A model generated the notes under the pieces. The model did no database searches, was not told where the DNA came from, and saw nothing but the letters and a program-made list of their open reading frames with translations. A stretch of 29,327 bases of DNA from a virus, in IMG/VR virus record IMGVR_UViG_3300025283_000002, positions 1 through 29,327 of that record; one strand, given 5' to 3'. Positions 143 through 22,127 of the stretch are shown piece after piece; the first letter of the stretch is position 1; every line of letters begins with the position of its first letter. The position numbers and the translations under genes were made by a program.

Positions 143-988
143 TTAGGAATATAATAAAATCTCTGTAGCAGGTTTGGCAGCATATCCTGTGCTAGTTTTC
201 TCTTTACGTCCTGCTGTATATGTTACAGGAAAACGAACGAGATTTAGATTACCTTTACGATCATCAAAGAATGTAGAACCATCACAGCGATTGCACAACA
301 TCACATGACCGTCAACTGATTTAGCATGTTCAATCAGTTTTTCAGTTGCAGCATCATCCCAAGTCGTACCATATTTAGTGAAACTATCACGATATGGCGG
401 ATCAAAATAAGTAAATGCTGCTGTAGGACAATCAATATAATCTCCTGACAGGATGTTTACTTTCTGCAGCAGTTGACTCCACGCCATAACATTGTCTTTA
501 TCGTAGACAACATCAGTCTGATTCAACAACCCAGCAGGAGTACCATATCTATCGTTAGTATTCTTATTGATTTGCCAAATACCATTGAACCCCGTCTTCA
601 TCAGGAAGTATAACACTGCTGCTTCAAATGGTTTATCCCACACATTATAGTCGTATGCGTGTGCATGGCGCACCTCAAAGAAATACTTCTTCCTGTCTTC
701 TTTAGACAAACGAATGTATTTTGCTTGAAAGATATCCACAACGTTACAAAACGCTTCTGGATCTTTTTTTACCGATCGGTAAATATTCATGATACTATCG
801 TTAATATCATTAATATATGCGTGTTCGGGATTATATTTCTGCATGATATGCAAGAACATAGCACCACCACCAAAAAATGGTTCACTATATGATGGAATAT
901 CAATAGCGTTAGGAAGATATGGTAGTTGATACTTTAGGACTTTGGTTTTACCACCTGCCCACATGAATAATGGTTTGATCTTAGACAT
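143..988 (-). CDS. dam: D12-class (Dam-type) DNA adenine-N6 methyltransferase
   Basis: Transfers a methyl group from S-adenosylmethionine to the N6 of adenine in DNA. The D12-class motifs are in the usual order: the N-terminal WAGGKTK signature (residues 10-16), the SAM-binding EPFFGGGAMF (36-45), the TGFNGIWQINK block typical of Dam/DpnII-type enzymes, and the catalytic DPPY (196-199). The 281-aa length is normal for the class. Family members most often methylate GATC, but the target cannot be read from the sequence. The ATG at 988 overlaps the stop of the EcoRI-like endonuclease gene by 8 nt (ATGTCTAA), so the two are probably translationally coupled. It may protect phage DNA from that nuclease or from host restriction. 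Class confidence is high; pairing with the nuclease is inferred from adjacency. Confidence 0.94.
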   Translation of the reverse strand: MSKIKPLFMWAGGKTKVLKYQLPYLPNAIDIPSYSEPFFGGGAMFLHIMQKYNPEHAYINDINDSIMNIYRSVKKDPEAFCNVVDIFQAKYIRLSKEDRKKYFFEVRHAHAYDYNVWDKPFEAAVLYFLMKTGFNGIWQINKNTNDRYGTPAGLLNQTDVVYDKDNVMAWSQLLQKVNILSGDYIDCPTAAFTYFDPPYRDSFTKYGTTWDDAATEKLIEHAKSVDGHVMLCNRCDGSTFFDDRKGNLNLVRFPVTYTAGRKEKTSTGYAAKPATEILLYS

Positions 989-1499
989 TATGAATACGCT
1001 CAGTGATAACCTCCTTCATGATAGCATACAACTGATCTTCTGTAAACCCATCTGTACGAAGAAAAGCACTATTATCACCAGGATTATAACGATCAAAACC
1101 ACCTTCAAGGTGAGCAACGTTCAATGCTTTACCAATCTGCCCGTCGTCATATGCGCCTTCTCCTATACAGAATGTTACATAACTGACATTAGGATTTATC
1201 TTACGGCAGATAAAGTTGTTCTTGAACCAACGTTCGACAGCGTTACCTTTGTTCTGTTGTTTCTTGCCTTCGAAGACAGCGATTAAAAGACCCCTGTAGA
1301 ACCAAGCGCCGCCATCAGGTTCACAAGCACCTTTACCACCAGGAATCTGGTTTTTAGTGAGTTTTCTCTGCATAACCAGATCTGGATAGACCTGATTCAG
1401 TTCTTCATACAAAGATTTTTTTAGTTTCTTACACTGACCATCTAGTTTACGAGCGTGAGCATCAGTAGCGACTGTGCCTGGTTGAATACCGCCTGCCAT
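981..1499 (-). CDS. EcoRI-like PD-(D/E)xK restriction endonuclease
   Basis: Predicted to cut double-stranded DNA at a specific site. The 172-aa protein carries the core EcoRI arrangement: PDGG with D62, about 15 residues later E77-x-K79 (FEGKKQ), then GNAVER (85-90) followed by KN, and downstream SYVTFCIGEG. EcoRI has PDGG (D91), E111-x-K113 within EAKHQ, GNAIER (E144 and R145 contact the GAATTC site), KN, and a PYVLFLEG strand, so catalytic and recognition residues line up in order. It is much shorter than EcoRI (about 277 aa) and lacks the long insert between ExK and GNAxER. It is the first gene after a consensus promoter at 1526-1554 and overlaps the methyltransferase start by 8 nt. No clear Shine-Dalgarno precedes the ATG, and the leader would be about 20 nt. 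Family assignment is by motif only; the recognition sequence is unknown. Confidence 0.82.
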   Translation of the reverse strand: MAGGIQPGTVATDAHARKLDGQCKKLKKSLYEELNQVYPDLVMQRKLTKNQIPGGKGACEPDGGAWFYRGLLIAVFEGKKQQNKGNAVERWFKNNFICRKINPNVSYVTFCIGEGAYDDGQIGKALNVAHLEGGFDRYNPGDNSAFLRTDGFTEDQLYAIMKEVITERIHNV

Positions 1500-2597: not shown

Positions 2598-3078
2598 GCT
2601 CCTCGGTCACGCGGGCGTTTTCTAGATCCAAACTCAACAAAATTTGATCAGAAGCAGGTTCAAAACCTAGTTCTGTTTTCAAATATTCACGATATGAATC
2701 AGTAACTTCCCTACCTCCGAAGATTGCATAATATCTTTTTAGTATCTGACCATATCTATCTTTACCAACTGTACCAAATACGCTTACATCTTTACCTAAG
2801 TCACTAACCCATTTATTAAATCCCACACGAAACATGTCAATCCCATGTCTATTTCCACGTCTGAATAAATCTAAGAGATAAATGTTTCCTAAAGCATAAT
2901 CATTCACTTGTCCATTTTTATTTGGATATGGTATTAATCTACCACACCCAACTGGAACATCATTGATCGTGACAGCAATATGCAATCCTTTTCTAACTGC
3001 TTCGATTGGAGGTTGATAATCAGAACGACTGATTACATACCAAAAATCTTCAAATTTGTGAGATATTCCATACTTCAT
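2584..3078 (-). CDS. Hypothetical protein, possibly GNAT-acyltransferase-like
   Basis: A 164-aa protein. The frame can be extended to a TTG at 3093, but ATG 3078 is chosen because GGAGAAAG lies directly upstream and TATGA gives a 4-nt overlap with the preceding oxygenase stop. The middle holds a beta-strand-like stretch IAVTINDVPVGCGRLI, then IYLLDLFRRGNRHGIDMFR and, further on, RYYAIFGG. Order and spacing are reminiscent of a GNAT fold (strand, RGxxxG-like loop, aromatic C-terminal motif), but no canonical R/Q-x-x-G-x-G/A loop is clear, so this is tentative. It is the last gene of the oxygenase cluster. Function otherwise unknown. Confidence 0.6.
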   Translation of the reverse strand: MKYGISHKFEDFWYVISRSDYQPPIEAVRKGLHIAVTINDVPVGCGRLIPYPNKNGQVNDYALGNIYLLDLFRRGNRHGIDMFRVGFNKWVSDLGKDVSVFGTVGKDRYGQILKRYYAIFGGREVTDSYREYLKTELGFEPASDQILLSLDLENARVTEELDKG

Positions 3079-3824
3079 ACAAACTTTCTCCAATGATTAA
3101 AGTGAAGTAAACCAGACTCATAGTTTATGACATTTTTGTTTAAAACTATTTTAATGTCACCTGCAATACTAATCCTAGTATCTGCAGCAACCAAACCAAC
3201 TTTATCAGGAAATACTGCGTGACCTATTCTACTAGGAAATAGTAATAAACTTCCTTCATCTGGTTTTACCGCATTTGCGGGTGAAGTCAAATAGTTGTAA
3301 TCTTTTAAAAAGTTTTTACCATCAACATTTCCATCAAACATCCCAGGAAACAACTCATTGTGTCTACCATCCCAGTTTTCATCTCTTGAAGAAAACCAGA
3401 TGGGGTAAGTAGTTTCATCTACTTGAGGATAGTATACGAATGAAATATCAGAAGATCCATGTTTATGAAAAGACATATCTTGATGTGGTTCTAGAATAGA
3501 ATACCAAGATTTCATAATGTAGAAGTCAAACAACTCCGTTTTAACTTTCATTGCACCATCCAAGTATACAAGAATGTGTGCCGTGATTTCTTTAAACATC
3601 TCTTCAAAAATCGGATCATGATGTAAAAAGATTTTGCCTCTATATTCTCCAGTAACTGATGATTTTTGCCTTTCAGTCAAAGTTGGATCTGGATCATAAT
3701 GAGAAAATCCATGTTTTTCTATATTTTTATCAGACAAAACAATCTGTTTATATTGTTCGTGTCCTTCCATTCTTCCATGATAAACAACTGTTGGATAAAA
3801 TGGTAAAATCTCAGCTTGTTGCAT
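3075..3824 (-). CDS. 2-oxoglutarate/Fe(II) oxygenase-like protein (2OG-FeII_Oxy_5 type)
   Basis: A 249-aa protein starting at MQQAEILPFYPTVV. The ATG at 3824 is chosen over an upstream in-frame start because TAGGAG lies a few bases before it and the previous gene stops just upstream. The double-stranded beta-helix signature is FHKHGSSDISFVYYP (H120, H122, D126), then LLLFPSRIGHAVFP (H202) and DTRISIAGDI (R217), the pattern of Fe(II) ligands followed by a 2-oxoglutarate-binding arginine. The N-terminal 'PFYPTVVY' opening and 'FPS..GHAV.P' are typical of phage and marine-bacterial members of this family. The substrate is unknown; protein or nucleotide hydroxylation are both possible. It is fourth of the five oxygenases in the operon. 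Confidence 0.8.
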   Translation of the reverse strand: MQQAEILPFYPTVVYHGRMEGHEQYKQIVLSDKNIEKHGFSHYDPDPTLTERQKSSVTGEYRGKIFLHHDPIFEEMFKEITAHILVYLDGAMKVKTELFDFYIMKSWYSILEPHQDMSFHKHGSSDISFVYYPQVDETTYPIWFSSRDENWDGRHNELFPGMFDGNVDGKNFLKDYNYLTSPANAVKPDEGSLLLFPSRIGHAVFPDKVGLVAADTRISIAGDIKIVLNKNVINYESGLLHFNHWRKFV

Positions 3825-3832
3825 TGTAACTC

Positions 3833-4597
3833 CTATGTAATGATCATGTATGTTCCACCAGCGGGTAATCCTTCGCACAAGTTGACAGTAACCATATTTC
3901 TGTCTCCTTTGATTTTTAAATCTGTTGGTTGATTGCCTTTAATGACTGGTATTGTTGATATAGAAAGATTAGAAAACTCCACAGAAGTGTTTTCTATTTG
4001 GTGTGGTAAAATATATATTGAACATTCTGGGTCCAGTGGTTTTTCTTTCCAAAGATTAAACATTAGTGTTACTCTAGGACCATAAAAATGAGGTCCGCCA
4101 AATACTCCATGAATATAAGGTTTAGTCCAGCATATAATCTTTCCTGGTTTTGGATTACTTAACCAAACAACAGTTGGAGTACTCGGATAATATTCAAACA
4201 CATCAGTATTTTCATATTTTGATGAGTTTGTTATAACTGTAGGACCGCCATCCCAAGACAGATAACTGACAAAAGACCACTCAGGTGTTCTACAGATCTT
4301 TTCTTTATCCATTAAAGAAACATCAAGATCTATATGAAATCCATGATCTTCAAAAGGTTCGTAAAAAACTCTAGTCCACCATTCTGCTCCAGTAGACTCA
4401 CCAGTATACTCAAAGTTTTTTACAGTTTCAGCAATATATTTTTCTATAATATTTTTTGGTTCTCGATCAAAAGAATACCAAAAATTTCTTTCGCCGTTTT
4501 TACATTTATTGATAGAAATACATTCTTTCTTTAAACGATCTACCGTATCAAGAGTTATATAATCATCTATTACGGAAAAGTTGGGTGTTGGTTTCAT
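3833..4597 (-). CDS. 2-oxoglutarate/Fe(II) oxygenase-like protein
   Basis: A 254-aa protein with a readable 2OG-Fe(II) core: DHGFHIDLD gives H88-x-D90, KPYIHGVFGG gives H163, and GPRVTLMFNLW gives R175, that is HxD...H...R with the expected arginine about 12 residues after the distal histidine. After the core comes a C-terminal extension of about 70 residues (LPHQIENTSVEFS onwards) that ends in a Gly-rich segment and is not part of the usual fold. The start overlaps the upstream 158-aa gene by 35 nt, a long overlap but with no better in-frame ATG nearby. The substrate is not evident. Confidence 0.78.
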   Translation of the reverse strand: MKPTPNFSVIDDYITLDTVDRLKKECISINKCKNGERNFWYSFDREPKNIIEKYIAETVKNFEYTGESTGAEWWTRVFYEPFEDHGFHIDLDVSLMDKEKICRTPEWSFVSYLSWDGGPTVITNSSKYENTDVFEYYPSTPTVVWLSNPKPGKIICWTKPYIHGVFGGPHFYGPRVTLMFNLWKEKPLDPECSIYILPHQIENTSVEFSNLSISTIPVIKGNQPTDLKIKGDRNMVTVNLCEGLPAGGTYMIIT

Positions 4598-5039
4598 ATG
4601 ATAAGAGTTCTTCTTCAGTATAAATGTCAGTAACCTTAAGCGGTGCTCCCTCGCATTTAGAGGAAGTTATATTTTCATAGTATACTGCTCCATCTGGGGC
4701 AGCAATACAGTTGTAAACGTATTTTTCTGGTGTATCCAGAATATCGTTCTTTCTATAAAAATACGTTTCTGCGTATTGTTGAGCATCTAATGGATTTGCA
4801 AAATACATTATAGCACATTTGTTATCGATTAAGATTTCTTTTAGGGGTTCTTCTAAAAGTTGATTGAAATAATCAAGAGCAGGTGCAGTTTTAGTTTGAT
4901 CTTCTTCGTTTAAGATTCCATCCATTCTACAAAAAAGAACTATTTTATTTTGTTCTTTTGCGTGAGCACAAATGTTGTTAACAACATCTGCATTGTCTTC
5001 TGTATCTTCTAAAAGAAAGTTACCATCTGCGACTATCAT
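4563..5039 (-). CDS. Hypothetical protein inside the oxygenase cluster
   Basis: A 158-aa acidic protein. Its ATG overlaps the stop of the upstream oxygenase by 4 nt (ATGA). The N-terminal half reads like alternating strands and helices (KIVLFCRMDGILNEED; EILIDNKCAIMYFANP), the second half is polar with AAPDGAVYYEN. No HxD...H oxygenase ligands are present. I do not recognise the fold. Tight coupling on both sides suggests it works with, or is regulated like, the neighbouring oxygenases. Confidence 0.65.
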   Translation of the reverse strand: MIVADGNFLLEDTEDNADVVNNICAHAKEQNKIVLFCRMDGILNEEDQTKTAPALDYFNQLLEEPLKEILIDNKCAIMYFANPLDAQQYAETYFYRKNDILDTPEKYVYNCIAAPDGAVYYENITSSKCEGAPLKVTDIYTEEELLSYETNTQLFRNR

Positions 5040-5638
5040 GACTTTTTCTTAAATAGTTTGAATGCTACTGTCATTCTTAATCCACTATATCTCCTAGTTG
5101 GAGATTCTGCGTAATGTAAAATAGTGCCAGGAAAATACACTGCTCTGTTTGGAATAGGAGGAATGTATTTTAGTACATTATCCTCATCCATAAACACTGT
5201 ATTACCACCCCATTCTACGTCCCAATGACTATTACTATATAGCAAAAAGGTATGTCCTTCATGATGATCTTGGTGAAAAGATCCCGACTGCCCATAAGTT
5301 TGTCCATTTGCATAGATCATTTCTATTTCAAAATCATGTTGTACAAGTTTTCTAATCTTATCCATCAAATAAGTATTAAAAAACTTTTCCTCAGAAAGTT
5401 CCATTCTCCAAAATGGAGTAACAAAAGGATCATAATGACTGCGAATACCACTATAAGAGTTCAACCTAATGATTTGTTGGTTATCTTCCCCAACATCAGG
5501 TCTTTGACTATGAGATCCAAACGACCACTTTGAACTAAAGCATAAATGTCTATAGACACACATAAAATCTTCTTCACTGAGTACATGGTCAAAAACCAGC
5601 ACATCAGTTATTTTGCCTTTTGATACTAACGTTTCCAT
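5036..5638 (-). CDS. 2-oxoglutarate/Fe(II) oxygenase (2OG-FeII_Oxy_3-like)
   Basis: A 200-aa protein with a clear prolyl-hydroxylase-type core: SGSFHQDHHEGH gives H122-x-D124, WGGNTVFMDED is the usual 'GG.l.f' turn, YFPGTILHYAE gives distal H175, and SGLRMTVAFKL gives R188 for 2-oxoglutarate. Predicted to couple 2-oxoglutarate decarboxylation to hydroxylation of an unknown, perhaps protein, substrate. Its start lies 35 nt inside the upstream PKHD-type gene and its stop overlaps the next ATG by 4 nt, so the cluster is tightly coupled. Of the five oxygenases here this and the 229-aa one have the most canonical motifs. Confidence 0.88.
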   Translation of the reverse strand: METLVSKGKITDVLVFDHVLSEEDFMCVYRHLCFSSKWSFGSHSQRPDVGEDNQQIIRLNSYSGIRSHYDPFVTPFWRMELSEEKFFNTYLMDKIRKLVQHDFEIEMIYANGQTYGQSGSFHQDHHEGHTFLLYSNSHWDVEWGGNTVFMDEDNVLKYIPPIPNRAVYFPGTILHYAESPTRRYSGLRMTVAFKLFKKKS

Positions 5639-6293
5639 AACTTCTAATCAAATTAAATCGAACACTTTCAATCTGCAGTATTTGTTCCTTTCTTAATGGA
5701 TATTCTTCTGGATTATCCATAGATTGTTTTAAAATAGACCACAAATCACCAACTGCTTCTCTGATTTGTGGATTATTAATCAGAGATTCAAACCACATAA
5801 TACAAACTTTTCTAGATCCAGAAATAATAGGTTCAACTCGGTGCTGAAGACCAGTTTGATATATTACAGCATGTCCTGCTGGTTCTTTGCAGCGGATTTC
5901 TTCCGTTCCTACGCTAATAACCAGTTCTCCTCCTTCATATTCTTCTGGATCATTCAGAAAAATAGTCATACTATAATCAGTTCTAGTATCATTATTTTGT
6001 ACATAAAAATCATTATGTACTCTATAATGCATATCTTTATTATAACGTAAAAATACTGGATCAGTAAACTTATACGCCAGAAACTTTTGTAGTATATACT
6101 CACATTTAGTAACTTTGTCAGAAACAAACTTAACTAATGTTGGAGTGTGAATAGGATCATACAACTCTTCATTATATTTCCATGCTTTATCAGGAGATCC
6201 TGTAGATTTACCATCTCTAAACTCACAAAAATCATAGAAGTTTAGAATATTGTCAACTAAAGGTTTTTCCAACAACGGCATTTTATAAATCAT
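5604..6293 (-). CDS. PKHD-type 2-oxoglutarate/Fe(II) hydroxylase
   Basis: A 229-aa protein close in layout to bacterial YbiX/PiuC-type PKHD hydroxylases: YRVHNDFY gives H93-x-D95, RTDYSMTIFLNDPEEYEGGE is the family's hallmark strand-turn, CKEPAGHAVIYQTGLQHRVEP gives distal H151 and the 'AG..v.Y....HRV.P' motif, and ISGSRKVCIMWFES gives R161. All ligands are present, so it should be active. PKHD proteins hydroxylate protein or small-molecule targets; the phage target is unknown. A second in-frame ATG at 6281 is possible, and neither start has a strong Shine-Dalgarno. It lies 15 nt after the chaperone-like gene. Confidence 0.9.
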   Translation of the reverse strand: MIYKMPLLEKPLVDNILNFYDFCEFRDGKSTGSPDKAWKYNEELYDPIHTPTLVKFVSDKVTKCEYILQKFLAYKFTDPVFLRYNKDMHYRVHNDFYVQNNDTRTDYSMTIFLNDPEEYEGGELVISVGTEEIRCKEPAGHAVIYQTGLQHRVEPIISGSRKVCIMWFESLINNPQIREAVGDLWSILKQSMDNPEEYPLRKEQILQIESVRFNLIRSYGNVSIKRQNN

Positions 6294-6308
6294 AACAATA
6301 TAATAATA

Positions 6309-7130
6309 TTATTCTGGAGATGATGCTGGCAAAATACCCATTAACTCTTGATAACTTTTGGTCAATCCCGCAGCACAATCATACAATCCCCTCAGATATC
6401 TATATTTGACGTAATGATTTTTAGGATCTTCTAAGTATGCAGTACCAGGAGCATATCCTACTTTCTCTAAATATGCATTTGCTTCAGCAATTTTTTCTTC
6501 ATCACCACTTGCAAATGTTTCAGTAAGTTCTTTTTCTTTACTTAAATACATATCTGGATCGACTGGAAATAACCAATCTAGTTTATCTTTTACTTCTACA
6601 TTCTTCTGAGGAACATCTCTCAATGCTTGGCGATATTTTAACCACATATTCTTAGTTTTTTCTGAAACTTGAGAATCAGTAGTAAACATCCAATCAGAAT
6701 GTGATAGAATAATACTTCTATACTGGTAAACATTTTCAGCTAATGTAGCTTCGTAAGATTTATAACCTTCTTCTAACTGCTTTTGTTCTTTTTCAAAGTT
6801 TACCTCAACTTGTCTTTCCCATCCAGATCTAAAAATCTTATAAACTTCTTTGGCATCAAGTTCTGGTAGTTCATACCATGTATAAATCTTCCAAATATAT
6901 TCACCTGGATTGTCTTTATCTGGCACTCTCTTTAATTTTTTACACCTATATGACCCATCACTAGCATACACAAATGTTTCTAGTTGATCATATTCACTAT
7001 TCCAGATTTCTGGAATTTTATCAAGAACATGTTCTTGCCAAATATCTACATCAATGGACATTGATTGTCCATTTTTTACTACTTGACGAGTATCAAGATA
7101 TGCCGATAATAAAATATTTACTTCTGTCAT
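6309..7130 (-). CDS. Tail-fibre assembly chaperone-like protein (Phage_tail_APC motif)
   Basis: A 273-aa protein with a segment matching the phage tail assembly chaperone motif: RSIILSHSDWMFTTDS (from about residue 136) followed by W..YRQALRDVPQ (about 161-172), where family members have 'R..LL..SDW....' and 'YRQALRDIP'. The region before it (about 105-135) is strongly charged and probably a coiled coil (FEKEQKQLEEGYKSYEATL). C-terminal to the motif is WLFPVDPDMYL and a helical region. It starts 2 nt after the stop of an oxygenase gene. Such chaperones usually lie just behind tail-fibre genes; here one oxygenase separates it from the three collar-fibre genes. It probably assists folding or trimerisation of those fibres. 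Confidence 0.7.
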   Translation of the reverse strand: MTEVNILLSAYLDTRQVVKNGQSMSIDVDIWQEHVLDKIPEIWNSEYDQLETFVYASDGSYRCKKLKRVPDKDNPGEYIWKIYTWYELPELDAKEVYKIFRSGWERQVEVNFEKEQKQLEEGYKSYEATLAENVYQYRSIILSHSDWMFTTDSQVSEKTKNMWLKYRQALRDVPQKNVEVKDKLDWLFPVDPDMYLSKEKELTETFASGDEEKIAEANAYLEKVGYAPGTAYLEDPKNHYVKYRYLRGLYDCAAGLTKSYQELMGILPASSPE

Positions 7131-7132
7131 TT

Positions 7133-7783
7133 TTATACAGGGCGTTTAAGGAACCATCCAGTCAAAATATATTTAGGTCTGGTATAAACTGGATTACCTC
7201 TATGTACATGTGTCATACCAGCTGGCCAAATAACAACTGTACCTACTGATGGTTTAATCCTGCGTTTTTGATATAAAAACTCTGTTTCTCCTTCATCATC
7301 TTCAATATCATTAAGATAAATCGCCCAGACAAGTTCTCTCAGAGCAGAATCTGGAGAAGAACTTTCATAATGCCAAACATGGTATCCACCACCCGATTCT
7401 GTTTTTTGAGCTTTAATATCCCAACTAACCAAAGGAATAGTTGCTAGTTGCCCATAATGATTTGTATAATCTTTCAAACAAGCGGCAAGATATTGATTGA
7501 TTTCTCGTGTCAATCCTTTATCGATCGAGTTAATAAAAACTGCTTTATCTTGTCTGCCTAGATTTTTATTTTCAAACTGATTGCTGCCCATGTGAATATT
7601 TTCACGAACACAATCCATCACTTCATCATTCATTGAAGGATTCATTAATGCAGTAAGAGACCATTTTTCAAATGCATTAATAATATCTACACATAGAACT
7701 TTAGGAAGAAAATTTTCCCAAACAGCAATAAAATCTTTGTAATCACCATCCATTAACTCAGGTGGTTTTATAGGTGTTTCCAT
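7133..7783 (-). CDS. 2-oxoglutarate/Fe(II) oxygenase-like protein with a variant ligand motif
   Basis: A 216-aa protein, first gene behind the promoter at 7806-7834. GGGYHVWHYESS gives H135, H138 and E140 in place of the usual HxD, so the first metal pair is probably H138-x-E140 or H135 with a nearby acid. VWAIYLND..DDEGETEF is the typical strand and acidic turn, VIWPAGMTHVHRGNP supplies the distal histidine (H192 or H194), and TRPKYILTGWF supplies R202 or K204 for 2-oxoglutarate. 'YH.WHyE....R.LvW.iYLND' is a recognisable subtype among marine phage oxygenases. The substrate is unknown. Its position next to the fibre genes would allow action on virion proteins, but this is speculation. Confidence 0.8.
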   Translation of the reverse strand: METPIKPPELMDGDYKDFIAVWENFLPKVLCVDIINAFEKWSLTALMNPSMNDEVMDCVRENIHMGSNQFENKNLGRQDKAVFINSIDKGLTREINQYLAACLKDYTNHYGQLATIPLVSWDIKAQKTESGGGYHVWHYESSSPDSALRELVWAIYLNDIEDDEGETEFLYQKRRIKPSVGTVVIWPAGMTHVHRGNPVYTRPKYILTGWFLKRPV

Positions 7784-11605: not shown

Positions 11606-14600
11606 TTATAGTTCCATTAACCACCAACCTTGACTAGAGGCTGGAATAATAGCTCCACTAGAATCAGTGGATCCTGCATATACTAGACCAAAACCAGCAT
11701 TTCTTGTTTGAACAATCAGTTCACCACCACCAGAATACGCTGTAGTTAATCCACCCGCTTTTGTTCCATTTGCATCACCTTCAACTTTATGACCACTTTG
11801 AGCACGAATAATAAGACTTCTATTATAAGTCAAGTTACTACCCACGTCAACAAATCTAATAATATCTCCTGTTTGTGGAGATGTTGGCAAGAAAAGAATC
11901 AAATCGGCGCCAGCAGAAATCAAATAGTTGATGTTAGATATTAAAGGTGTTGATGCTGTGTTGCTAGCCGAAATATATAGGGTTCTTCTACCACCACTAG
12001 ATGTGAAGTAACCATCAATGCCTCCCATATCAATGGCACCAGTGTTATTAACTTTAAATCTCTTAGTGGTACTAGAGTTAACCGTTAAATCACCACCAGA
12101 TAAAGTTACATCACCACCTACATTTAGATTTTCTGCAACACCAGCGCCTCCATCAACAACCAATGCACCAGTTGTCGTATCAGTCGAACTAGTATTGCCC
12201 TCAATCTTCAATGTACCACTGTTTCCGTTACCGATTACAGTGTTACCAGTCTGAGCATCTACGGAGAAGTATGTAGTGCCACCCAATATACCATTTTTGA
12301 TTATAAAATCATCACCTATTGTTAGAGAACCTCCAGCAGTTGATCCACCGATAATCGTATCACCATCACAACTGTCAATCGAGAATCTAGTGACTGGGGA
12401 AGCAGATCCATCCGTAACAGTAAATAGTTCAGTTCCACATACAGTAGATCCATTAATCGTGAGAGATTTACCAAAACTAGTGCTGCCCGCAATAGTAGTG
12501 TCACCAGTAATACTATCAACCGAGAATACAACAACTGGAGCTGGTGCTCCATTATTAATAGAGAACTTCTTAGTGTCTCCAGTAGGAGTAGCTGTGATTC
12601 TTACATATTCAGATTGTCCCGTTCCCGCTACGTTAGTACCATCGATTCTCAAATAATCACGAACATTGAAACTTCCACCAAACTCAGCAAGATTAATCTT
12701 CGTAGAATCAATCGTAAATGACGTAGCAGATGTGACAGTTCCATCAAGGTCAATAGGAGTTAAATCTGGATAAGTTGGCGACAGCTGGAATGTTTGAGTA
12801 GTCCCTGTAGAAGATAGGTTTACAATAAAATACTTGCTAGTAGTATTGATTCCAGTTAATCCACCCAGATTGCTAAACTGAACAACATATGTTGTTAGTA
12901 AATCGGTTCCAGTTGTAGTAAACTGGTTTGTATTAGCATTGATTGAAATCTGTGATGTACCAGTTTTTGTAATAGTTGAAGCTGGAACGTAGTTAGGTGT
13001 TAGGTAACTTGCAGTTGGTGTTTTTTCCAACTTATAGATAACACTATCAGAAACGTGTACTGCTGCAGTTGTGCCATCCACTCCCCTAATAACAGAAACC
13101 GTAAATGGAGATGTAGACGTTGGGAAGTTGGTGGTCTTAACAATTTCATTATCAATCAGTAGATATTCATTAGTACCAATGCCTTTGGGGTTATTGATTG
13201 GAAGAGTTGTGGATGTTGCATTCCAAGAGGAGAATCCATCACTGTAAACTGTAGTGTATCTTAGAGTTGCTGTAACTTGTACAAACGTTCCGCCAAGTGT
13301 AACTGCAGGTCCACCATTAGTTAGACTTACTTGGAAGTTATTTGCCGTAGCATTAACAACATAGTAGAATGGACCAGAAGGATCTCCACTTGCATCATAT
13401 GATGTTTGAGTAATACCTGTAGTTCCAGAAACGATTGGGAAACAAACAATCTGATTATTTTGGAAGTATTGTGTGTTGCTAATAACATTAAATGTATTAC
13501 CAGAAACGGAAGTTACATTTAGTGATCCGTCAATATCAGGTATAAAACGATAATAGTCAACATTAAGAATCTGACTTGTTCCGCTAGAATGAACAGAAGG
13601 AGTAGATCCTAACGCTCCTCTTGCTACTGTAGCGGAAGCACTCAAGTATCCGCCATTCATAGTCAAACTACTGAATGATTGAGATGCTGCTTTAACGACT
13701 AGATTATTTTGAATCGTAGTTGTACCAGCAACGCCACCTAAAGTAAGATCAGTTGCAAAAGTACCAATCTTCAATGTACTTACGGCACCAGACTCAGTAA
13801 ACATATTAACTAAGTTAGCACTAGAGTTAATAGTTGCTCTAGTTCTAGATACACCGTTTACTACTACAGTTTCGCCACCATTGATTTGTAAGTTACCATC
13901 AAAAATATTTTGATAGTTTTTGACTCTTAAAATACTAGATGAAGGATTAGCAAATGCTCCACCTAAAGTAATCAATGATTGATATGTATTATTAGAGTTG
14001 CCTACGGTGCCAACATTAACTGTGGAATTAATAGATGCAGTGTGTACATTTAAAGTGCCTGCTGCAGTTACTGCAGTGCCAACATTAATCGTTTGTGCTG
14101 AAGTGGTGGTATTGAAAACATTAGCAGTTGTAACATATCCACCAAGATTTAACGTAGTTGTAGGGCTACTGGAGTTGTTGAGAAGGTTGAATGTAGAAGA
14201 AGTTGAAGTTAAATCTCCACCGTTGATTTCGGCATCTGCCTCCATCTTTAAATCACCTGTAATTCTACCAGTTCCAACTACAACTAATGCTCGATCTAGT
14301 TGTGCATTAGTAGCATTGATACCAACTCTACCACTATTTGTTGTAGCAACACGAAGAGTTGCTGCGTTAGTTGGAGTAGCACTGTCACCACCAACTATGA
14401 GAGCACTATCCTGAGAACTCTCCGTTTTTGTCGAAACTCCAGAAGAGTTGATTGACACAGAAACTGTTTTGCCGCTGACAAATGCATTACCAACTACATC
14501 TAGATTTGCTCTTGGTTCTGTTTCAGCAGTAATATATGAACTTTGATATGCAGTATCAGTTGCTCTTGCAAGAGTATTAATACCTACTTTATAATCACCA

Positions 14601-17600
14601 AATGCAGATGTCTTAGTTCTTATTGATTCCGAACCAATAACTCCAAACTCTTTCCAAAGATTATTTGAAACTTGGAAAGTTAATCCTAATGAAGAAGCAG
14701 ATTGTGTAACTGTAGTTGTTCCGATATTTGGAGCAATATACAAATATAAGTAGGTAGAAGTTGCTCCTGGATATCCTGGTTCATTAATCGCCGTACCATT
14801 ATTAGCATCAGCAGCAATAATGACATTAGTAGTAGGGATAGACCAAGATGTAGGTGAGTTAATCGCTGTGTTTGAAGATCCAGTGATTCTGATTTGAGAA
14901 TCGGATCTAATACCAAGGTTAGCAAGAGTGTCACCAAAGTTAACTCTAATAATAGAATATGTGTTGAATGTTTTAACGCTTACAACTTGTGGAGTGGCAC
15001 CCGTTGTACTCTTAGTTTCATAATCATTGGCAAAGATCCATCCCAAAGAACCACCGTAGGTGACCTTTTCGCCCTTGAATAAAATCTCACCAGATCTAGG
15101 TGGATTAGTTCCCCAGTTACTATTTGATGAGATGATTCGTTGAGATGTATTGAAGAATCCAGCAGCACCTCTGGCAGAGTTAGATCCATAATCACCAATC
15201 TGTACTGGTGTATAGTTGTTCGTTGCAGTTCTAATCCTATAATCCTGAGAACCACGAACATTGAGGTCCCAAACGCCAAAGGTAAAAATATTATTACCCA
15301 AGGTCATGTCGCCAATACCATTTCCTTTAGGATCATTTGCATCTGATCCAGCAGGAGAACTGTAGTTAATAATAGTAAGAGGTGGTTTAATAATAGCACC
15401 TGAAGTATTTGTTGTATCTGAAGAAATCAGAATAGGAACGTTGAGAGATACAACAGGAAGAGTTGGAGGAATAACTTGATTATAGTTAAATGTAACTGTA
15501 TTATTGAAAGTTACAGGATCATCAAATGTAGTTACAAGAACATTACTGATTCCTACATCCTCATCCTCTTCATCAGTAATAGGTGCGTCTAGGAACGTTT
15601 CTTCGCCTGTGATAGCGTTGATTTTGCGATTACCAATATAAAGATCACCACTGGAGTTTAAACCAGTATAGAGGACAATACCAGCATCTTGGCGTTTTGC
15701 TTGAGCATAGAAATCTTGCTTATCTGTAAGAACAACTTGTTGGCGAACAGGGAAACCAGTTGAATAGTTACCAGGACCAAACCCAAGATACTCAAATGTA
15801 TGGTTACCTGAACGAGCAATAGATGGTCTGCGAAATTCTACATATAGTTTTTGTTCCGTAGGATAATCAGATGCTCCAGAAATAGGAATCTTTCTTATCT
15901 CTGATCCAGCAGAAGCTCCGCCTTCTTTTGCAGTAAGAGCATTATTTCCCGTAAAAATATGCGAACCTGCACCAGGATCTGCTATGAGATCGACAACTGC
16001 TTCTTTAGTTAAACTTCTCTTAGCATCATTAACCGTAACATATCCATGTACATAGTTGTCAGCACTCGACACAGTTGCTGGTGGATCAAGAAGTGTAGTA
16101 TTTCTAGAGGGGTTATCTTGGTTTGTTACACTATCAGTAATCTGGAACCACAATGGATCATTCTTTTGAGATAGAGGATAGATTCTAGAAACTGGTTGCG
16201 AAAACTTGAAGTTTCTAAAGTTTTCTCCAATACCAGATCCAACAGGATATGGTCTAATATCACCACGAATAGCAGTTAAGTAATAGATACCATCTTGCTG
16301 TCCTTTGATTCTCTTACGAATAGTTTCTGATTTATAAACATAATAAGTATTTTCAAGATCATCTATATCAGATACACTATCGATTCTATATTGTGCATTA
16401 CCACCAGACGTGGATGGCAATGTAATCGTATCGCCAGGGGTTAATGTGTAGACATTTGCGCCATCTACCGTATATAAGAAGTTTTTCTTATTAGAACGAC
16501 CACCATCTTTCTCTTCCTGCATAATAGCAGTTACAGAACCTTGTGTAAAGGTTGTATTTGAGAAAGCACTGTAACCTAAAGATCCAGAAATATTTTTAAG
16601 AATCAAATAATTATGTGTCGGGAACCATGCATGTACGGTTGCAGATCCAGTATTTGCAGAGGCATATCCTGATCCTGCCCAAGTAATCGTACTGTTTACA
16701 ATAAAGTTACCAGTTCCTCCTTGTGGGGAACTAACTTTGATAGTAGAGAACAATGAAGTTTTTAAAGCAGGATCAATAACACCAACGTCAAAAACTGTTA
16801 GTTGTAAATAATTCGATCCAGAAACATTGATTTTTTTAGCTGATTGAATGGAAAAACTAATCTTACTGTCAGTTTCTGCTACATAAGGATCTTTGTATGG
16901 ATCATATTGACTGATAAAGTTAGGATTTGCAGTATTATATGCACTACCATTCTTTTGTTCGGTAGTTGTTAAACCTAGTCTCTCTCCATTTTTAACAATA
17001 TTTGCAAAAGAATCGGCAGCTCCAACTGGTCTAAGGACGATTCGTTGAGGTAATAATCTCCTTGTATCGTCCGTTTTTAGTTTAAGAACAAATCCATTGA
17101 TAGGATCTCTATAGTTACCCTCTTTTGGTATAACATATCTGATGCGATAAACTTTATCTGAGTTGTCACGATCATCAGCAATACGATAGAACCACGTATC
17201 AGTTGTTCTAGATTTTCCAGTAATATCAGCATAAACCGATAACTTTAATCTCTCTAAAATTTCATTATTTGTTGCTGAAGTTTGGATAAACCAAGAACCT
17301 TTATTACCTGCAGTATCTTGTGTTGTAGCTTCGGCATCAAATCTAACTGGAGTTCTTCTTTTGTTAGAAAATACATAAAACTGTGTACCAGCAGCACTAA
17401 ACTGAACCGCAGAATTACCATTGATAGCGTCAATGTGTGATGTGTGAATAGTAAATTTCGTGTTTCTTTCTTCTAATGTCCCTGGAACTGGTGGAATATA
17501 ACGAACATAATATTCAATATCAGTTGGTAATGTTCCACCACCAGATGTTTGTGATCTCGTTGGAAGTGTTGATCCAGAAATATCTACGCCTGTTCTAAAG

Positions 17601-20600
17601 AAAACTCTTTGGGGTGTGGTGTTTGCAGCTTGCTTATCAAATGAATGAGGTCCAGTAGTTGTAAATACCTCATTGTTTCCTGGTACAAGATTTACTTTGT
17701 ATTTGAAAAGATCATAGTTTAAATCTTGTACATATTGATGAACCTCAATAACAACGTTTGGATCAATAGATTCTGTTTCTGATGAATAAATGTAAATACC
17801 AGCATTTGCATTTTCTTCACTAGTAGCAAGCATCAATGTTTGCTGAGAAGTGGTAGATCCATCAAATGTTGTATATGAAGAAAAGTCAAATGGTTCTGTA
17901 TTTCTACCAGGAGCGATTACATAATACTTTGTATTAGTATCAAATCCCTTTGGTAACCTAATCAATCTTTTATCAACGCTATCATTTAATCCTCTAGGAA
18001 CAAGTCTTACGGGAGTAGCTGTTTCTAAGTTATGTGGATTTGTGTTTGATGTGGTGATTTCTGTTAACTTAAATAATGTTGCTCTGTTTGCAAGAGCAGA
18101 AGTATTTAAAGTAGGTGAAGAAACTGGAACAGTACCTACACCACTATTAATAATAGTTGAGATTGTTATAAACGCCGTAGTGATTGCAGTGGCAACATTT
18201 GCACATTCTGGATAGTTTGTGTCAGTAGTAATTGAAGAATCTGTTATTGGTTGAATGTATGAAGTGTCTGCCCAAATACCACTAGTTAATGTTAAAGTTA
18301 AAGTTACAGTAGAAGAACTTGCTGTAGCATTAACAGTAGAACCAGTATCTAAGAAACTATCTTCTGTTCCTAGTTGGAAAGTCGTTGAGTTTAAAATCTT
18401 CTTGACATATGTACCAGCAGGAATACCAGTCCCGCTAACTGACATACCCATAACAACACCAGCGCCGCCTGTACTTCCAACAGTAACAATTGGAGATCCA
18501 TTTACAATAGTTGCATTTTGAATAGTAAAACTCCAGTTTCTCATTGCGGCGATACATAAATCTCTCACATAGTTGTATGCATCCAGAGTTTCTGTCTTCT
18601 CGTTGTTGATATAATCTAATGTTGTACCAACATAATATGATTCCGCTGCATTAACAACATTGACGTTTCCACCTAAACGAAGATCAGCTGCAATCGCTTC
18701 AACAACATAACCAATATCACGCTTACACTTACTTGTCTCTCCAACCGATGACCAGGCACCAGGATCTCTTACAGGTACAGAAGAAATATTACCGCTAGAT
18801 ACTGCGCTGGTAAGTATAGAAATCAGACTGTCTACTGTTGCTCTCACATTAGCACATGAGTTTTCACTTAAGTTTGAACCTGTTACTGGATCAGCAGTGA
18901 TTGTAGTGTCTTTAACAAAAAGTTGATTTGTTAAAGCTTTCTTCATCCAATCACGAGCTTTATTGAAAGCAATGACTGATTGAGTTGTTTCCCCAACTAA
19001 ACCATTAGAAATAGGAACACCAGCACCGTCAAAATATAGCTTAGTTGCATCAACGATTGCTGCATTTCCACCATTATACAAGTCAGAAACCATCGCATCT
19101 ACAATAAGTCCAATATCACGCTTGCACTTAACTTCGCCTGCGTTATCAACAGTTCCAGTTGTTTCTGCTGGTAATGTAGCAAGATCAACTGCAGTTAGAG
19201 TTGTTGAAACGATAGTAGCAAGCGTGTCTACTGCACTTCTAACGTCCGCACAAGCGGCAGGATTATTATTTGCAATATTTGCACCACCACCACCATAAGT
19301 AGAAGGACCAGAAGAAATAGTAAGGTCTGTATAAACGCTCTGAGAACCAGTACTGCCATCTACCCATGTTCCGCCAGCAGGAGATGATGTAACCACTCCA
19401 GAGAACGAAGCAAGAGTGTTTGTGATTGCTGATTTGATAGCATCTCTAGCTTTATTGAATGCAGTGATTGATTGAGTTATTTCACCAGCAAGACCATTTG
19501 TAAGAAGAGTCGTATTAGCAGTGAAATACTGCTGTACAAACTTACGAGTATATCTGTTTCCACCCGCTGAACCAACATCCATCGAAACAGCATCGACAAA
19601 AATACCAATATCTCTCTTACATTTAGCAAGCAAGTTTGCAGGTGGTGGTGATGGAGGATTTGCTACTACGGTAGCATATGCAGTCTCAACAATAATATTT
19701 CTATTTTTTTGAATGAGACGATAAGCATCAAAATATCTGCCAACTTGTTGGTTGACTAAATCGCCAGGAACAACCCAATTAATTCCCCAAGATGCTTCAT
19801 CATATTGAACAGCAATCTCTAAGAACGCTCTCTCAATAATCTCAGTGCGATTTGCTTTAATCAGATTACTTGCATCTCTATATCTACCAGTTTCGGTGGT
19901 AATATTAGGATTAACATATGGAATATTTTGTAAAGCAGGATACTTTTTAAGAACGTATCCAAATGCTTCCGCTTGAATAAATGCTTTATTAGAATCGATT
20001 AAGTTAGCAGCATCTTGTAACCTATTTTCATCTGCTGTGAACAACCCACTAGGAGACAGAGTTGATAAAGATGTTGTCCACTTTTTAACACCATTAGGCG
20101 TTACTAATGCACTTTTGATTTGCTTACCAGATTCTCCAGAAATAGCGTCAAGTTTTACATATAACTTTTCCCCTGCTTTTGCACCCAGTTTAAATCCTTC
20201 AATAGATGCTGCTGGACGATCAGTTGGATCACTAGCATTATCAATACCATAGTACAACTTGGTATTATTTGGAGCGTCATTAGATAATGGAACATTAAGA
20301 GTATAGTAGTTCTTAAGCTCTGGTGTTGAATCAATAAGTTTCTTAGGTGGAATGATATGAGTAATGTATCCACCTTTATCTTGATTGAATGCAAATCCTT
20401 TATAACCAATGGTATGAAGTGAAGTATTACCAAAGTTAGAGTTTGAGTTGGTGATAGACATATCACCACCAGACTCCATAAGGAAGTGATCAGCAAAACC
20501 TACCGCGAAAATCGAAACGCACTGAATGAAAGAATCTTCTGATGCTCTAACGTGGAAGTTTCTCCAATCATCCTTCCAATATGCAGTACCATCAATATGG

Positions 20601-21958
20601 TATGGAGTTGTTGAGAAAGCATCTTGTAAATTTGCTTGATTCCAAGTGTTTGTAAACTCATCATAACGAATGAAAGAACGGTCATCTTTCTGTAGCGAAA
20701 CGCCCGTATACTGGGCAATAACCATAGATTTAAAACCAGTGGCTCTAGAACCATCTGCCCAGATACCACAAATACCCCAAGTTGAACGAATAGAAACGTT
20801 AAAGACGTATGGAGATGCTGATTCTACGCTATCTACTTCTGCTTGCACAGAAGCAGTAGTTCCTGGTTTGCTTAGCTTAATCAGCGAAGATTCGGTATAT
20901 GTTGCACCACTAGTCAATCCAAGACCAGCAGCACTAAAAGGTACATTATAAGTAAACTCTTTTAAATCAGTACCACTAATAGATTTTACTTTGAATACAC
21001 CGTTTAACTTATCCTGACCAGCATTTAATCCAGTGATAGCGACATACTGACCCGTGAAGAAACCGTGATTGATTTTGGTAGTTACAGTAATATCACAAGT
21101 TCCTGAAAATGCACCTGTAGTAATATTAGTTGGAATAATCTTTTCAATAGTAATAGAATCGGAAAGAGGACCAACGATTCTATTTTCTTGAATTCTAAAC
21201 TGAAACTCGTTAGGATCATCAATAGTTGGTTGGTAGTTGCTAAATGCTTTTGCTACCTTTTGATATAAAGCACCAAGATCTTCTTTTCTAGCAAAAACAA
21301 AGTTAGTAATCTTATGGTGAGAATATTCTGGTATCGAAAGAACCGTACCGTCTGGTTGTGAATATACCTTACCTACACCAGCAGTGGCGTCATAAAGTGG
21401 GTTATTTGGTGTTAAGTCACCATCAAGAATAGTAAACTGCCAGAAGTAACATCCACCTGTTACTTGGAAAATGGAAGTTCTGCCAATATCCTTATCTGCA
21501 GGGTCAGGTACATAAAGAGGACGCACCTGTGTTCTACGAAGGTCTGTACCTACAAGAGATGTACCTCTTGGAATAATACAACCACCTTCTACAGAGTTAA
21601 ACTTACGAAGAATGTTGTTAGCATTAGATAGATCTAGAATAGAGTTATCTGTCCACTCTCCATTTGCATAGTTAAACGCAGAAACAGTAGAAGCATCTGC
21701 ATCACCAGGGCGGTTATCTACATAGTGAGTACCAGGGGCTAGAAGAATCGTAAACTGGTCAAAACGATCATTATCAGAACCAGGAACATAAGAATAACGA
21801 GCCGTCTCTAAAAATGCTCTTTGAATAGTTACAAAAGGTCTAGTTGGTGAGTTTCCTCTGTTGTCTAATGCATCACTAGCATTAAAGTCATCAGGTGAAA
21901 CATACAAATATTTTCCAGTCTTACTTGAAAGTAGATTATCTAGTCTGGTTAATGGCAT
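11606..21958 (-). CDS. Giant (3450-aa) baseplate/tail-fibre structural protein with internal repeats
   Basis: One uninterrupted frame of 10.4 kb. The N-terminus (about 30-170) reads as the start of a right-handed beta-helix: RPFVTIQRAFLETARYS, TILLAPGTHYVDNRPG, CIIPRGTSLVGTDLRRTQV, TGGCYFWQFTILDG. Repeated helical modules follow between about 640 and 1170, including three CKRDIG modules starting near residues 779, 943 and 1076 with GGN and F/Y-N-K/Y-x-R-D landmarks. The C-terminal third is a low-charge beta-repeat fibre, with FSVDSITGDTTIAGS, FSIDSCDGDTIIGGS and FSVDAQTGNTVIGNG near 3148, 3198 and 3234, then TTGALVVDGGAGVAENLNVG, a motif frequent in marine phage fibres. It starts 39 nt after the TATAAATA late promoter, with GAGAAG before the ATG. 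Similar very large virion proteins are known in T4-like cyanophages; the exact position in the virion is not established by this sequence. Confidence 0.85.
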   Translation of the reverse strand: MPLTRLDNLLSSKTGKYLYVSPDDFNASDALDNRGNSPTRPFVTIQRAFLETARYSYVPGSDNDRFDQFTILLAPGTHYVDNRPGDADASTVSAFNYANGEWTDNSILDLSNANNILRKFNSVEGGCIIPRGTSLVGTDLRRTQVRPLYVPDPADKDIGRTSIFQVTGGCYFWQFTILDGDLTPNNPLYDATAGVGKVYSQPDGTVLSIPEYSHHKITNFVFARKEDLGALYQKVAKAFSNYQPTIDDPNEFQFRIQENRIVGPLSDSITIEKIIPTNITTGAFSGTCDITVTTKINHGFFTGQYVAITGLNAGQDKLNGVFKVKSISGTDLKEFTYNVPFSAAGLGLTSGATYTESSLIKLSKPGTTASVQAEVDSVESASPYVFNVSIRSTWGICGIWADGSRATGFKSMVIAQYTGVSLQKDDRSFIRYDEFTNTWNQANLQDAFSTTPYHIDGTAYWKDDWRNFHVRASEDSFIQCVSIFAVGFADHFLMESGGDMSITNSNSNFGNTSLHTIGYKGFAFNQDKGGYITHIIPPKKLIDSTPELKNYYTLNVPLSNDAPNNTKLYYGIDNASDPTDRPAASIEGFKLGAKAGEKLYVKLDAISGESGKQIKSALVTPNGVKKWTTSLSTLSPSGLFTADENRLQDAANLIDSNKAFIQAEAFGYVLKKYPALQNIPYVNPNITTETGRYRDASNLIKANRTEIIERAFLEIAVQYDEASWGINWVVPGDLVNQQVGRYFDAYRLIQKNRNIIVETAYATVVANPPSPPPANLLAKCKRDIGIFVDAVSMDVGSAGGNRYTRKFVQQYFTANTTLLTNGLAGEITQSITAFNKARDAIKSAITNTLASFSGVVTSSPAGGTWVDGSTGSQSVYTDLTISSGPSTYGGGGANIANNNPAACADVRSAVDTLATIVSTTLTAVDLATLPAETTGTVDNAGEVKCKRDIGLIVDAMVSDLYNGGNAAIVDATKLYFDGAGVPISNGLVGETTQSVIAFNKARDWMKKALTNQLFVKDTTITADPVTGSNLSENSCANVRATVDSLISILTSAVSSGNISSVPVRDPGAWSSVGETSKCKRDIGYVVEAIAADLRLGGNVNVVNAAESYYVGTTLDYINNEKTETLDAYNYVRDLCIAAMRNWSFTIQNATIVNGSPIVTVGSTGGAGVVMGMSVSGTGIPAGTYVKKILNSTTFQLGTEDSFLDTGSTVNATASSSTVTLTLTLTSGIWADTSYIQPITDSSITTDTNYPECANVATAITTAFITISTIINSGVGTVPVSSPTLNTSALANRATLFKLTEITTSNTNPHNLETATPVRLVPRGLNDSVDKRLIRLPKGFDTNTKYYVIAPGRNTEPFDFSSYTTFDGSTTSQQTLMLATSEENANAGIYIYSSETESIDPNVVIEVHQYVQDLNYDLFKYKVNLVPGNNEVFTTTGPHSFDKQAANTTPQRVFFRTGVDISGSTLPTRSQTSGGGTLPTDIEYYVRYIPPVPGTLEERNTKFTIHTSHIDAINGNSAVQFSAAGTQFYVFSNKRRTPVRFDAEATTQDTAGNKGSWFIQTSATNNEILERLKLSVYADITGKSRTTDTWFYRIADDRDNSDKVYRIRYVIPKEGNYRDPINGFVLKLKTDDTRRLLPQRIVLRPVGAADSFANIVKNGERLGLTTTEQKNGSAYNTANPNFISQYDPYKDPYVAETDSKISFSIQSAKKINVSGSNYLQLTVFDVGVIDPALKTSLFSTIKVSSPQGGTGNFIVNSTITWAGSGYASANTGSATVHAWFPTHNYLILKNISGSLGYSAFSNTTFTQGSVTAIMQEEKDGGRSNKKNFLYTVDGANVYTLTPGDTITLPSTSGGNAQYRIDSVSDIDDLENTYYVYKSETIRKRIKGQQDGIYYLTAIRGDIRPYPVGSGIGENFRNFKFSQPVSRIYPLSQKNDPLWFQITDSVTNQDNPSRNTTLLDPPATVSSADNYVHGYVTVNDAKRSLTKEAVVDLIADPGAGSHIFTGNNALTAKEGGASAGSEIRKIPISGASDYPTEQKLYVEFRRPSIARSGNHTFEYLGFGPGNYSTGFPVRQQVVLTDKQDFYAQAKRQDAGIVLYTGLNSSGDLYIGNRKINAITGEETFLDAPITDEEDEDVGISNVLVTTFDDPVTFNNTVTFNYNQVIPPTLPVVSLNVPILISSDTTNTSGAIIKPPLTIINYSSPAGSDANDPKGNGIGDMTLGNNIFTFGVWDLNVRGSQDYRIRTATNNYTPVQIGDYGSNSARGAAGFFNTSQRIISSNSNWGTNPPRSGEILFKGEKVTYGGSLGWIFANDYETKSTTGATPQVVSVKTFNTYSIIRVNFGDTLANLGIRSDSQIRITGSSNTAINSPTSWSIPTTNVIIAADANNGTAINEPGYPGATSTYLYLYIAPNIGTTTVTQSASSLGLTFQVSNNLWKEFGVIGSESIRTKTSAFGDYKVGINTLARATDTAYQSSYITAETEPRANLDVVGNAFVSGKTVSVSINSSGVSTKTESSQDSALIVGGDSATPTNAATLRVATTNSGRVGINATNAQLDRALVVVGTGRITGDLKMEADAEINGGDLTSTSSTFNLLNNSSSPTTTLNLGGYVTTANVFNTTTSAQTINVGTAVTAAGTLNVHTASINSTVNVGTVGNSNNTYQSLITLGGAFANPSSSILRVKNYQNIFDGNLQINGGETVVVNGVSRTRATINSSANLVNMFTESGAVSTLKIGTFATDLTLGGVAGTTTIQNNLVVKAASQSFSSLTMNGGYLSASATVARGALGSTPSVHSSGTSQILNVDYYRFIPDIDGSLNVTSVSGNTFNVISNTQYFQNNQIVCFPIVSGTTGITQTSYDASGDPSGPFYYVVNATANNFQVSLTNGGPAVTLGGTFVQVTATLRYTTVYSDGFSSWNATSTTLPINNPKGIGTNEYLLIDNEIVKTTNFPTSTSPFTVSVIRGVDGTTAAVHVSDSVIYKLEKTPTASYLTPNYVPASTITKTGTSQISINANTNQFTTTGTDLLTTYVVQFSNLGGLTGINTTSKYFIVNLSSTGTTQTFQLSPTYPDLTPIDLDGTVTSATSFTIDSTKINLAEFGGSFNVRDYLRIDGTNVAGTGQSEYVRITATPTGDTKKFSINNGAPAPVVVFSVDSITGDTTIAGSTSFGKSLTINGSTVCGTELFTVTDGSASPVTRFSIDSCDGDTIIGGSTAGGSLTIGDDFIIKNGILGGTTYFSVDAQTGNTVIGNGNSGTLKIEGNTSSTDTTTGALVVDGGAGVAENLNVGGDVTLSGGDLTVNSSTTKRFKVNNTGAIDMGGIDGYFTSSGGRRTLYISASNTASTPLISNINYLISAGADLILFLPTSPQTGDIIRFVDVGSNLTYNRSLIIRAQSGHKVEGDANGTKAGGLTTAYSGGGELIVQTRNAGFGLVYAGSTDSSGAIIPASSQGWWLMEL
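18540..19625 (-). repeat. Degenerate tandem repeats inside the giant gene (CKRDIG modules)
   Basis: Three copies of a module coding for CKRDIG-x-x-V-D/E-A start near 19622, 19131 and 18732, about 490 and 400 bp apart. Corresponding DNA such as CCAATATCACGCTTACACTT (18711) recurs with few changes near 19110 and more changes near 19605. Between them the AFNKARD and NGL-x-GE-x-TQS segments also repeat (about 19430-19500 and 18950-19010). This indicates internal duplication that has since diverged. Confidence 0.75.
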
Positions 21959-22055: not shown

Positions 22056-22127
22056 AGCCCCCGATCTGATTTGAACAGACGACCAGCGGTTTACAAAACC
22101 GCTGCTCTACCACTGAGCTACAAGGGC
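22056..22127 (-). tRNA. tRNA-Thr (anticodon UGU)
   Basis: A 72-nt cloverleaf: acceptor GCCCTTG pairs with CGGGGGC (two G-U pairs), D arm GCTC/GAGC, anticodon stem GCGGT/ACCGC around the loop TTTGTAA (anticodon TGT), T arm GTCTG/CAGAT with loop TTCAAAT, discriminator T. CCA is not encoded. It reads ACA threonine codons, which are common in this AT-rich genome. Its first 10 nt overlap the end of cpeT, including the TAG stop codon. Confidence 0.93.

Follow-up and report, generated by a model that had tools for sequence, protein, structure and literature searches.

Why would a T4-like cyanophage carry, side by side, a gene resembling a classic bacterial restriction endonuclease and one for an adenine methyltransferase, and which DNA site would the two enzymes share? 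The question is raised by a 29,327-bp fragment from a marine cyanobacterial virus (IMG/VR record IMGVR_UViG_3300025283_000002; hereafter, the window), the other genes of which resemble the tail/baseplate region of T4-like cyanophages. The pair, denoted R and M below, lies on the minus strand:

1526–1554 (−): sigma-70-like promoter TTGACA-17-TATAGT, an 11/12 match directly 5' of R
981–1499 (−): R, a 172-aa ORF with an ATG start; predicted compact EcoRI-family endonuclease, phrog_2400
981–988 (−): 8-nt overlap of the R stop and the M start, from the ORF coordinates; 0–14 nt in many homologous loci
143–988 (−): M, a 281-aa ORF; D12/Dam-class N6-adenine methyltransferase (MTase), the predicted cognate of R (A-m6A-TT)

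Both open reading frames, the overlap and the motifs named in a preliminary description of this DNA were confirmed, with exact coordinates, and a promoter-like site, such as it had mentioned, is present directly upstream of R; shuffling the 300 bp upstream of R yields an 11/12 match in 0.85% of cases. Translational coupling of R and M through the overlap is likely. Elsewhere in the window, all on the minus strand, a CpeT/CpcT homolog (phycobiliprotein lyase family; 22118–22603) is found near a baseplate hub-like gene, a run of genes at 3075–7783 includes at least one match to 2OG-Fe(II) oxygenases along with other oxygenase-like proteins, and a 3450-aa ORF (11606–21958) presumably encodes a structural protein of the tail or baseplate.

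Alignment of R with EcoRI places the signature residues of the enzyme as follows:

1308–1319 (−): P61-D62-G63-G64 of R, equivalent to EcoRI P90-D91-G92-G93, with the catalytic Asp
1263–1271 (−): E77-G78-K79 of R, equivalent to the catalytic EcoRI E111-A-K113
1230–1247 (−): G85-N-A-V-E-R90 of R, equivalent to EcoRI G140-N-A-I-E-R145, the AATT contacts

In addition, K93-N94 of R aligns with EcoRI K148-N149 and the invariant Q81 with EcoRI Q115; R thus resembles EcoRI and RsrI (PF02963 with PF13651) in the order and identity of D, E, K and Q, of GNAxER and of KN. Comparison of 28 diverse homologs revealed invariance at P61, D62, G64, E77, K79, K80 and Q81 and, in the second part of the motif region, at G85, N86, A87, E89, R90, W91, F92, K93, N94 and N95, with the x of GNAxER being either V or I. 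Invariance across 28 diverse homologs puts the conservation of these motifs far beyond chance, and the catalytic residues were unchanged in homologs down to 45% identity. In EcoRI, N141, A142 and R145 take part in contacting the AATT core (PMC4081073). The motif layout had initially been described as matching EcoRI in both order and relative spacing; the order holds, whereas the spacing does not, with 15 residues rather than 20 from D to E and 6 rather than 27 from the K of ExK to GNAxER. Unlike EcoRI (277 aa), the phage protein lacks the DNA-embracing arms.

The relationship to EcoRI is visible by profile–profile comparison only. R had no match in Pfam up to E 1 (the PF02963 gathering threshold is not reached), in NCBIfam or in PADLOC, and neither R itself nor its profile retrieved EcoRI or any other relative from the PDB by sequence. 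Given the absence of Pfam matches up to E 1, we regard R as a remote branch of the superfamily rather than a classical PF02963 member. With hhalign, in contrast, R matched five EcoRI-family proteins at E 1.4e-8 and a set of 80 compact bacterial EcoRI-like proteins at E 1.1e-11 (score 78.9, compared with a maximum of 20.4 for 60 column-shuffled profiles), so that the kinship proposed at the outset was borne out at E-values of 1e-11 to 1e-8. The AlphaFold2 model (pLDDT 88.6) has the order alpha-beta-beta-beta-alpha-beta, with D62 preceding the first core strand (65–68) and E77/K79 within the strand 71–80, a plausible topology for a PD-(D/E)xK nuclease. The best solved structure found by Foldseek was the restriction enzyme BbvCI (probability 0.87, E 8.6e-3), with EcoT38I, Bse634I and XPF/Mus81-type nucleases also among the matches; nothing fell below E 1e-3, and EcoRI was absent among the matches listed. 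Taken with the motifs, the model is consistent with R being a compact, armless EcoRI-family PD-(D/E)xK nuclease, as predicted here. By PHROG match, R belongs to phrog_2400, listed as 'unknown function', and this conserved cyanophage family therefore gains a predicted function and, as argued below, a predicted target site.

Compact EcoRI-like genes were also found in very diverse bacteria (L068–L147, including the Synechococcus MAG L139); a genome search with a looser motif gave at least 385 candidates of this bacterial family, whereas the motifs of the phage type were absent from all 84,980 prokaryote species genomes searched. The bacterial proteins, of about 235 aa, are alignable with phage R in their C-terminal part but have 42–44 residues from PDGG to GNAxER, compared with 24 in the phage. 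Similar to the phage pair, these systems (Paracoccus type) combine a shortened EcoRI-like R with an MTase that has DPPY (of class D12 in the single case tested); unlike in the phage pair, the MTase gene comes first, upstream of and overlapping the R gene, and the profile of phage M does not pick up its product.

The assignment of M is more straightforward: it matched PF02086 (3.4e-27) and TIGR00571 dam (1.2e-38), both above the cut-offs, and DpnM (1.6e-20). Three sites in M bear on its class and specificity:

392–403 (−): catalytic motif D196-P-P-Y199, from sequence and alignment
572–574 (−): Q139, at the position of E. coli Dam R124 by alignments; Q in R-linked copies
962–964 (−): M9, at the position of E. 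coli Dam K9 by alignments; I, M or T in R-linked copies

M shares with E. coli Dam and DpnM the fold class, DPPY, the N-terminal WAGGK motif and the conserved N120 and P134. Recognition of GATC by E. coli Dam relies on K9 for the G of base pair 1, on L122 together with P134 for base pair 3 and on R124 for base pair 4 (PMC10073500). The R-linked copies of M retain P134 but have I, M or T for K9 and Q for R124, changes that would fit A:T outer pairs and hence AATT. By itself this is a weak indication, because MTases without linkage to R also have Q at the R124 position; those of the phages BIS47 and S-H34, for example, combine this Q with a retained K9. The initial reading of M as a Dam-type MTase is upheld for the class (PF02086, TIGR00571, DPPY), but 'Dam-type' should not be taken to mean GATC: M differs from GATC-specific Dam in the residues for the outer pairs, and GATC shows neither a purge nor a link to R. 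As the target common to R and M, GATC was rejected, with 673 copies present in the R-bearing, M-less contig G001 (observed/expected ratio, O/E, about 0.8).

R is conserved within the Kyanoviridae. It was found in 58 IMG/VR loci and in 65 records of phage isolates, all from Synechococcus phages (S-RIM2 isolates, S-BM1 and S-CREM2), including S-RIM2 isolates whose names carry the years 1999, 2006 and 2007 and dozens more. The pair can therefore not be called unusual in T4-like phages, as had been supposed at first, and the S-CREM2 copy already bears the annotation 'restriction endonuclease EcoRI'. We found no description of the cyanophage R–M pair in the open-access literature. M lies downstream of R in 47 of the 60 loci examined (about 80%), overlapping the R stop by 0–14 nt in 28 and separated from R by a stretch of 0.9–1.4 kb, with room for one gene, in 17; in one locus, the contig end cuts M just after its start, and in another, the two are naturally fused in a single 470-aa ORF (L057:1887–3299; D12 domain at residues 185–430). 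The 13 loci with no M nearby comprise L031, L032 and L035, which represent the lineage of contigs G001–G003 discussed below, L016 and L017, and eight members of the divergent R2 clade (L051–L059). The R2 proteins (45–49% identity) retain CAPDGG, ESKKQG and GNAIERWFKNN; L057 apart, no D12 methyltransferase was found near them or on the 62-kb contig G010. A gene for a ParB/sulfiredoxin-like protein of 300–360 aa with a DGQHT or GNHTSEI motif recurs between R and M in several dissimilar versions (reference copy L002:5615–6670, SWUG_00042 of S-RIM2, phrog_2558; equivalent places in L005, L007, L012, L021, L024, L027, L030, L036, L044, L045 and L018); it may be mobile or may form a third part of the system. 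In L018 (1569–1976), R is apparently frameshifted after 135 aa, the remainder continuing in another frame.

The endonuclease-first order had been taken as the reverse of that of a resident system and as suited to a weapon. However, R also comes first in EcoRI itself, on its plasmid, and in the relatives from Rhodococcus and Leuconostoc, so that gene order says nothing about such a role. The phage pair thus shares with EcoRI the order of the genes and the (predicted) AATT core, and differs in being phage-borne, in its predicted site (AATT rather than GAATTC) and in its partner, which is of the D12/Dam class rather than an EcoRI_methylase. Overall, motifs, profiles and linkage support the original proposal of a phage-encoded pair in which an EcoRI-family PD-(D/E)xK nuclease is coupled with an MTase of the D12 class. 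It is extremely improbable that R is instead a degenerate or non-nucleolytic DNA-binding protein that became the neighbour of an ordinary orphan Dam-like methylase by chance. Such a view could draw on the lost arms, on the position of R below the Pfam threshold and on the frequency of D12 MTases in phages (662 records), but all catalytic residues are invariant even in the distant homologs, the genes overlap and have been fused in nature, and the complete purge of AATT described next would be difficult to account for if R did not cut DNA.

On the premise that R cuts a site shielded by M, phages with R and without M must be free of it. Three contigs carrying R provided this situation, no D12 MTase being found on any of them, although the contigs are partial and M could lie on the missing sequence. 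Compared with expectations from trinucleotide counts, AATT was absent from all three: 0 versus 339 in the 111,864 bp of G001, 0 versus 251 in the 80 kb read of G002 and 0 versus 233 in the 73,883 bp of G003, or 0 versus about 820 in the pooled 266 kb. G001 and G002 represent one species (99.9% identical) and G003 a second one (86.4%), so the zero-AATT evidence comes from one lineage. As a control set, we used 80 relatives of the helicase gene that neighbours R in G001, analysing those on sequences of at least 9 kb. All four with R had AATT at O/E 0, 0, 0 and 0.13, whereas all 68 without R were at 0.50–1.08, none of them at zero. Among the 16 palindromes, AATT best separated 27 units with R from 77 without (AUC 0.93, the next being CATG with 0.78), with a P-value of 4.6e-11 that is too small because the units are related to each other. 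Recognition of an AATT core by R is thus indicated, indirectly, both by the zero counts in contigs with R but not M and by this separation.

The loss of AATT acts on DNA rather than on protein, as follows from the synonymous codon bias in G001. Asn was encoded by AAT in 0/213 cases before T versus 570/1363 elsewhere, Glu by GAA in 0/84 cases before TT versus 710/1202 elsewhere, and Lys by AAA in 0/73 cases before TT versus 438/1075 elsewhere. The same bias was evident in the window, despite the presence of M (16/114 versus 376/493 and 2/24 versus 291/351), where 49 AATT sites were found versus 207 expected (O/E 0.24), none of them within the R–M genes. More generally, phages with both genes on larger contigs retained 42 to 990 AATT sites, and the O/E of phages with R other than the M-less ones ranged from near 0 to 0.88. 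Two short contigs with R and no M nearby (L016 and L017, of 11 and 23 kb) had ordinary or high numbers of AATT; their M may be located elsewhere in the genome. In the R2 clade, AATT was not purged, and no palindrome was consistently depleted besides CCGG, which is generally absent. GAATTC, the site of EcoRI, was rejected as a target: AATT has gone in every context from the M-less contigs, and GAATTC was not specially depleted in phages with both genes.

Given the zero counts in the contigs with R but not M, the contrast with R-less relatives and the synonymous nature of the loss, it is most likely that R cuts and M protects AATT, both activities being predicted. The site statistics further support R being active against unprotected DNA. 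What is new here is the naming of AATT, through site statistics, as the most likely target of R. An explanation in which a host restriction enzyme cutting AATT drives the depletion, R being incidental and directed at another site, has some basis: palindromes are evidently selected against independently of R, at the host or phage level, as cyanophages with and without R miss others, above all CCGG, which is at zero in nearly all of them. Nevertheless, we consider this explanation very unlikely, since the depletion tracks R among phages sharing the same helicase gene, since phages with M tolerate AATT, and since the GNAxER segment of EcoRI contacts exactly the AATT core (PMC4081073).

Taken together, the locus is very probably a two-gene restriction–modification operon of a T4-like cyanophage, in which R cuts unmodified AATT and M shields it, with M-less lineages being AATT-free. 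Computation establishes the homology of R, its linkage to M and an AATT depletion that goes with R and with the absence of M; cleavage activity, methylated base, timing and biological role are what we infer, as follows. R, presumably as a dimer, would recognize AATT and cut it where unmodified, and M would methylate AATT, most likely at the second adenine (A-m6A-TT), by analogy with the second-position adenine of Dam, sparing the phage DNA. Driven by a host-type promoter, R would attack both the host chromosome, thereby releasing nucleotides and shutting off host genes, and any unprotected co-infecting phage, such as R-less cyanophages. Phages that lost or never had M would have kept R and cleared every AATT, protecting themselves by sequence. 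On balance, we favour the view that a lytic lineage exists that carries an active 4-bp restriction enzyme with no methyltransferase and is immune since selection removed every AATT. If so, the distinction of self from non-self rests on the genome text itself, sequence replacing methylation, and this lineage amounts to a natural experiment in which a site purge stands in place of modification.

The M-less lineage also bears on the notion that the pair is a selfish addiction cassette, carried along by phages to no benefit of their own. Two-gene restriction–modification units are mobile, the gene neighbourhood differs between phages (S-CREM2 versus S-RIM2), and 17 loci have additional genes between R and M, all as this notion would have it. 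However, addiction needs M, whereas the lineage in which no M was found on the partial contigs keeps an R with intact catalytic residues at the cost of every AATT, and R recurs in S-RIM2 isolates named for three different years and in dozens more; a purely selfish cassette is therefore quite improbable.

As to what R is for, breakdown of host DNA appears more likely than superinfection exclusion. An AATT cutter would reduce a Synechococcus chromosome to roughly kilobase-sized pieces (an estimate from general base composition), and pieces of this scale suit host DNA breakdown. That the same enzymes were selected for destroying the DNA of rival phages in a co-infected cell, and not for attacking the host chromosome, is conceivable but rather doubtful. 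Cyanophages without R are near-normal in AATT (68–407 sites per 50 kb; O/E 0.50–1.08 among the helicase-gene relatives) and would be cut, and a phage protected by M or by the loss of its sites is thereby told apart from other phages; yet the host DNA is just as unprotected and far larger. The restriction–modification pairs of chloroviruses (CviJI and others) provide the closest functional parallel to the cyanophage pair, in that a virus encodes R beside M and degradation of host DNA has been proposed. Their sites are of 2–4 bp, and in the sections of PMC7019647 considered here, the breakdown of host DNA is ascribed to the packaged nucleases whereas mutual exclusion is not, which, by analogy, would also argue against exclusion as the function of cyanophage R. 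Chloroviruses differ in that they infect eukaryotic algae and package R in their virions, as cyanophage R is not known to be; the same sections mention no M-less, site-purged chlorovirus lineage (PMC7019647).

R would thus represent a case of a virus turning a classic bacterial antiviral enzyme to its own use, and is a concrete candidate for the enzyme behind host chromosome breakdown during cyanophage infection. Among bacterial restriction enzymes, MluCI and Tsp509I are AATT cutters, and phage R is likened to them by its (predicted) specificity alone. Because carriers of phrog_2400 include the isolated phages S-RIM2 and S-BM1, the prediction can be tested in Synechococcus. The approach of sorting site statistics by the presence or absence of a nuclease is applicable to other orphan phage nucleases. 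In this respect, further palindromes were poorly represented in the 50 kb read of several cyanophages: TCGA was missing from ACG-2014d (L211), GTAC from S-RIM44 (L214) and GCGC from P-TIM40 (L207), and GATC was at 0.2 of expectation in S-RIM8 (L205) and S-M1 (L208). Further restriction enzymes, encoded by phages or hosts, may lie behind these gaps and, if sequence can indeed replace methylation as in the M-less lineage, the cyanophages free of TCGA, GTAC or GCGC in the stretch read may themselves carry more such enzymes.
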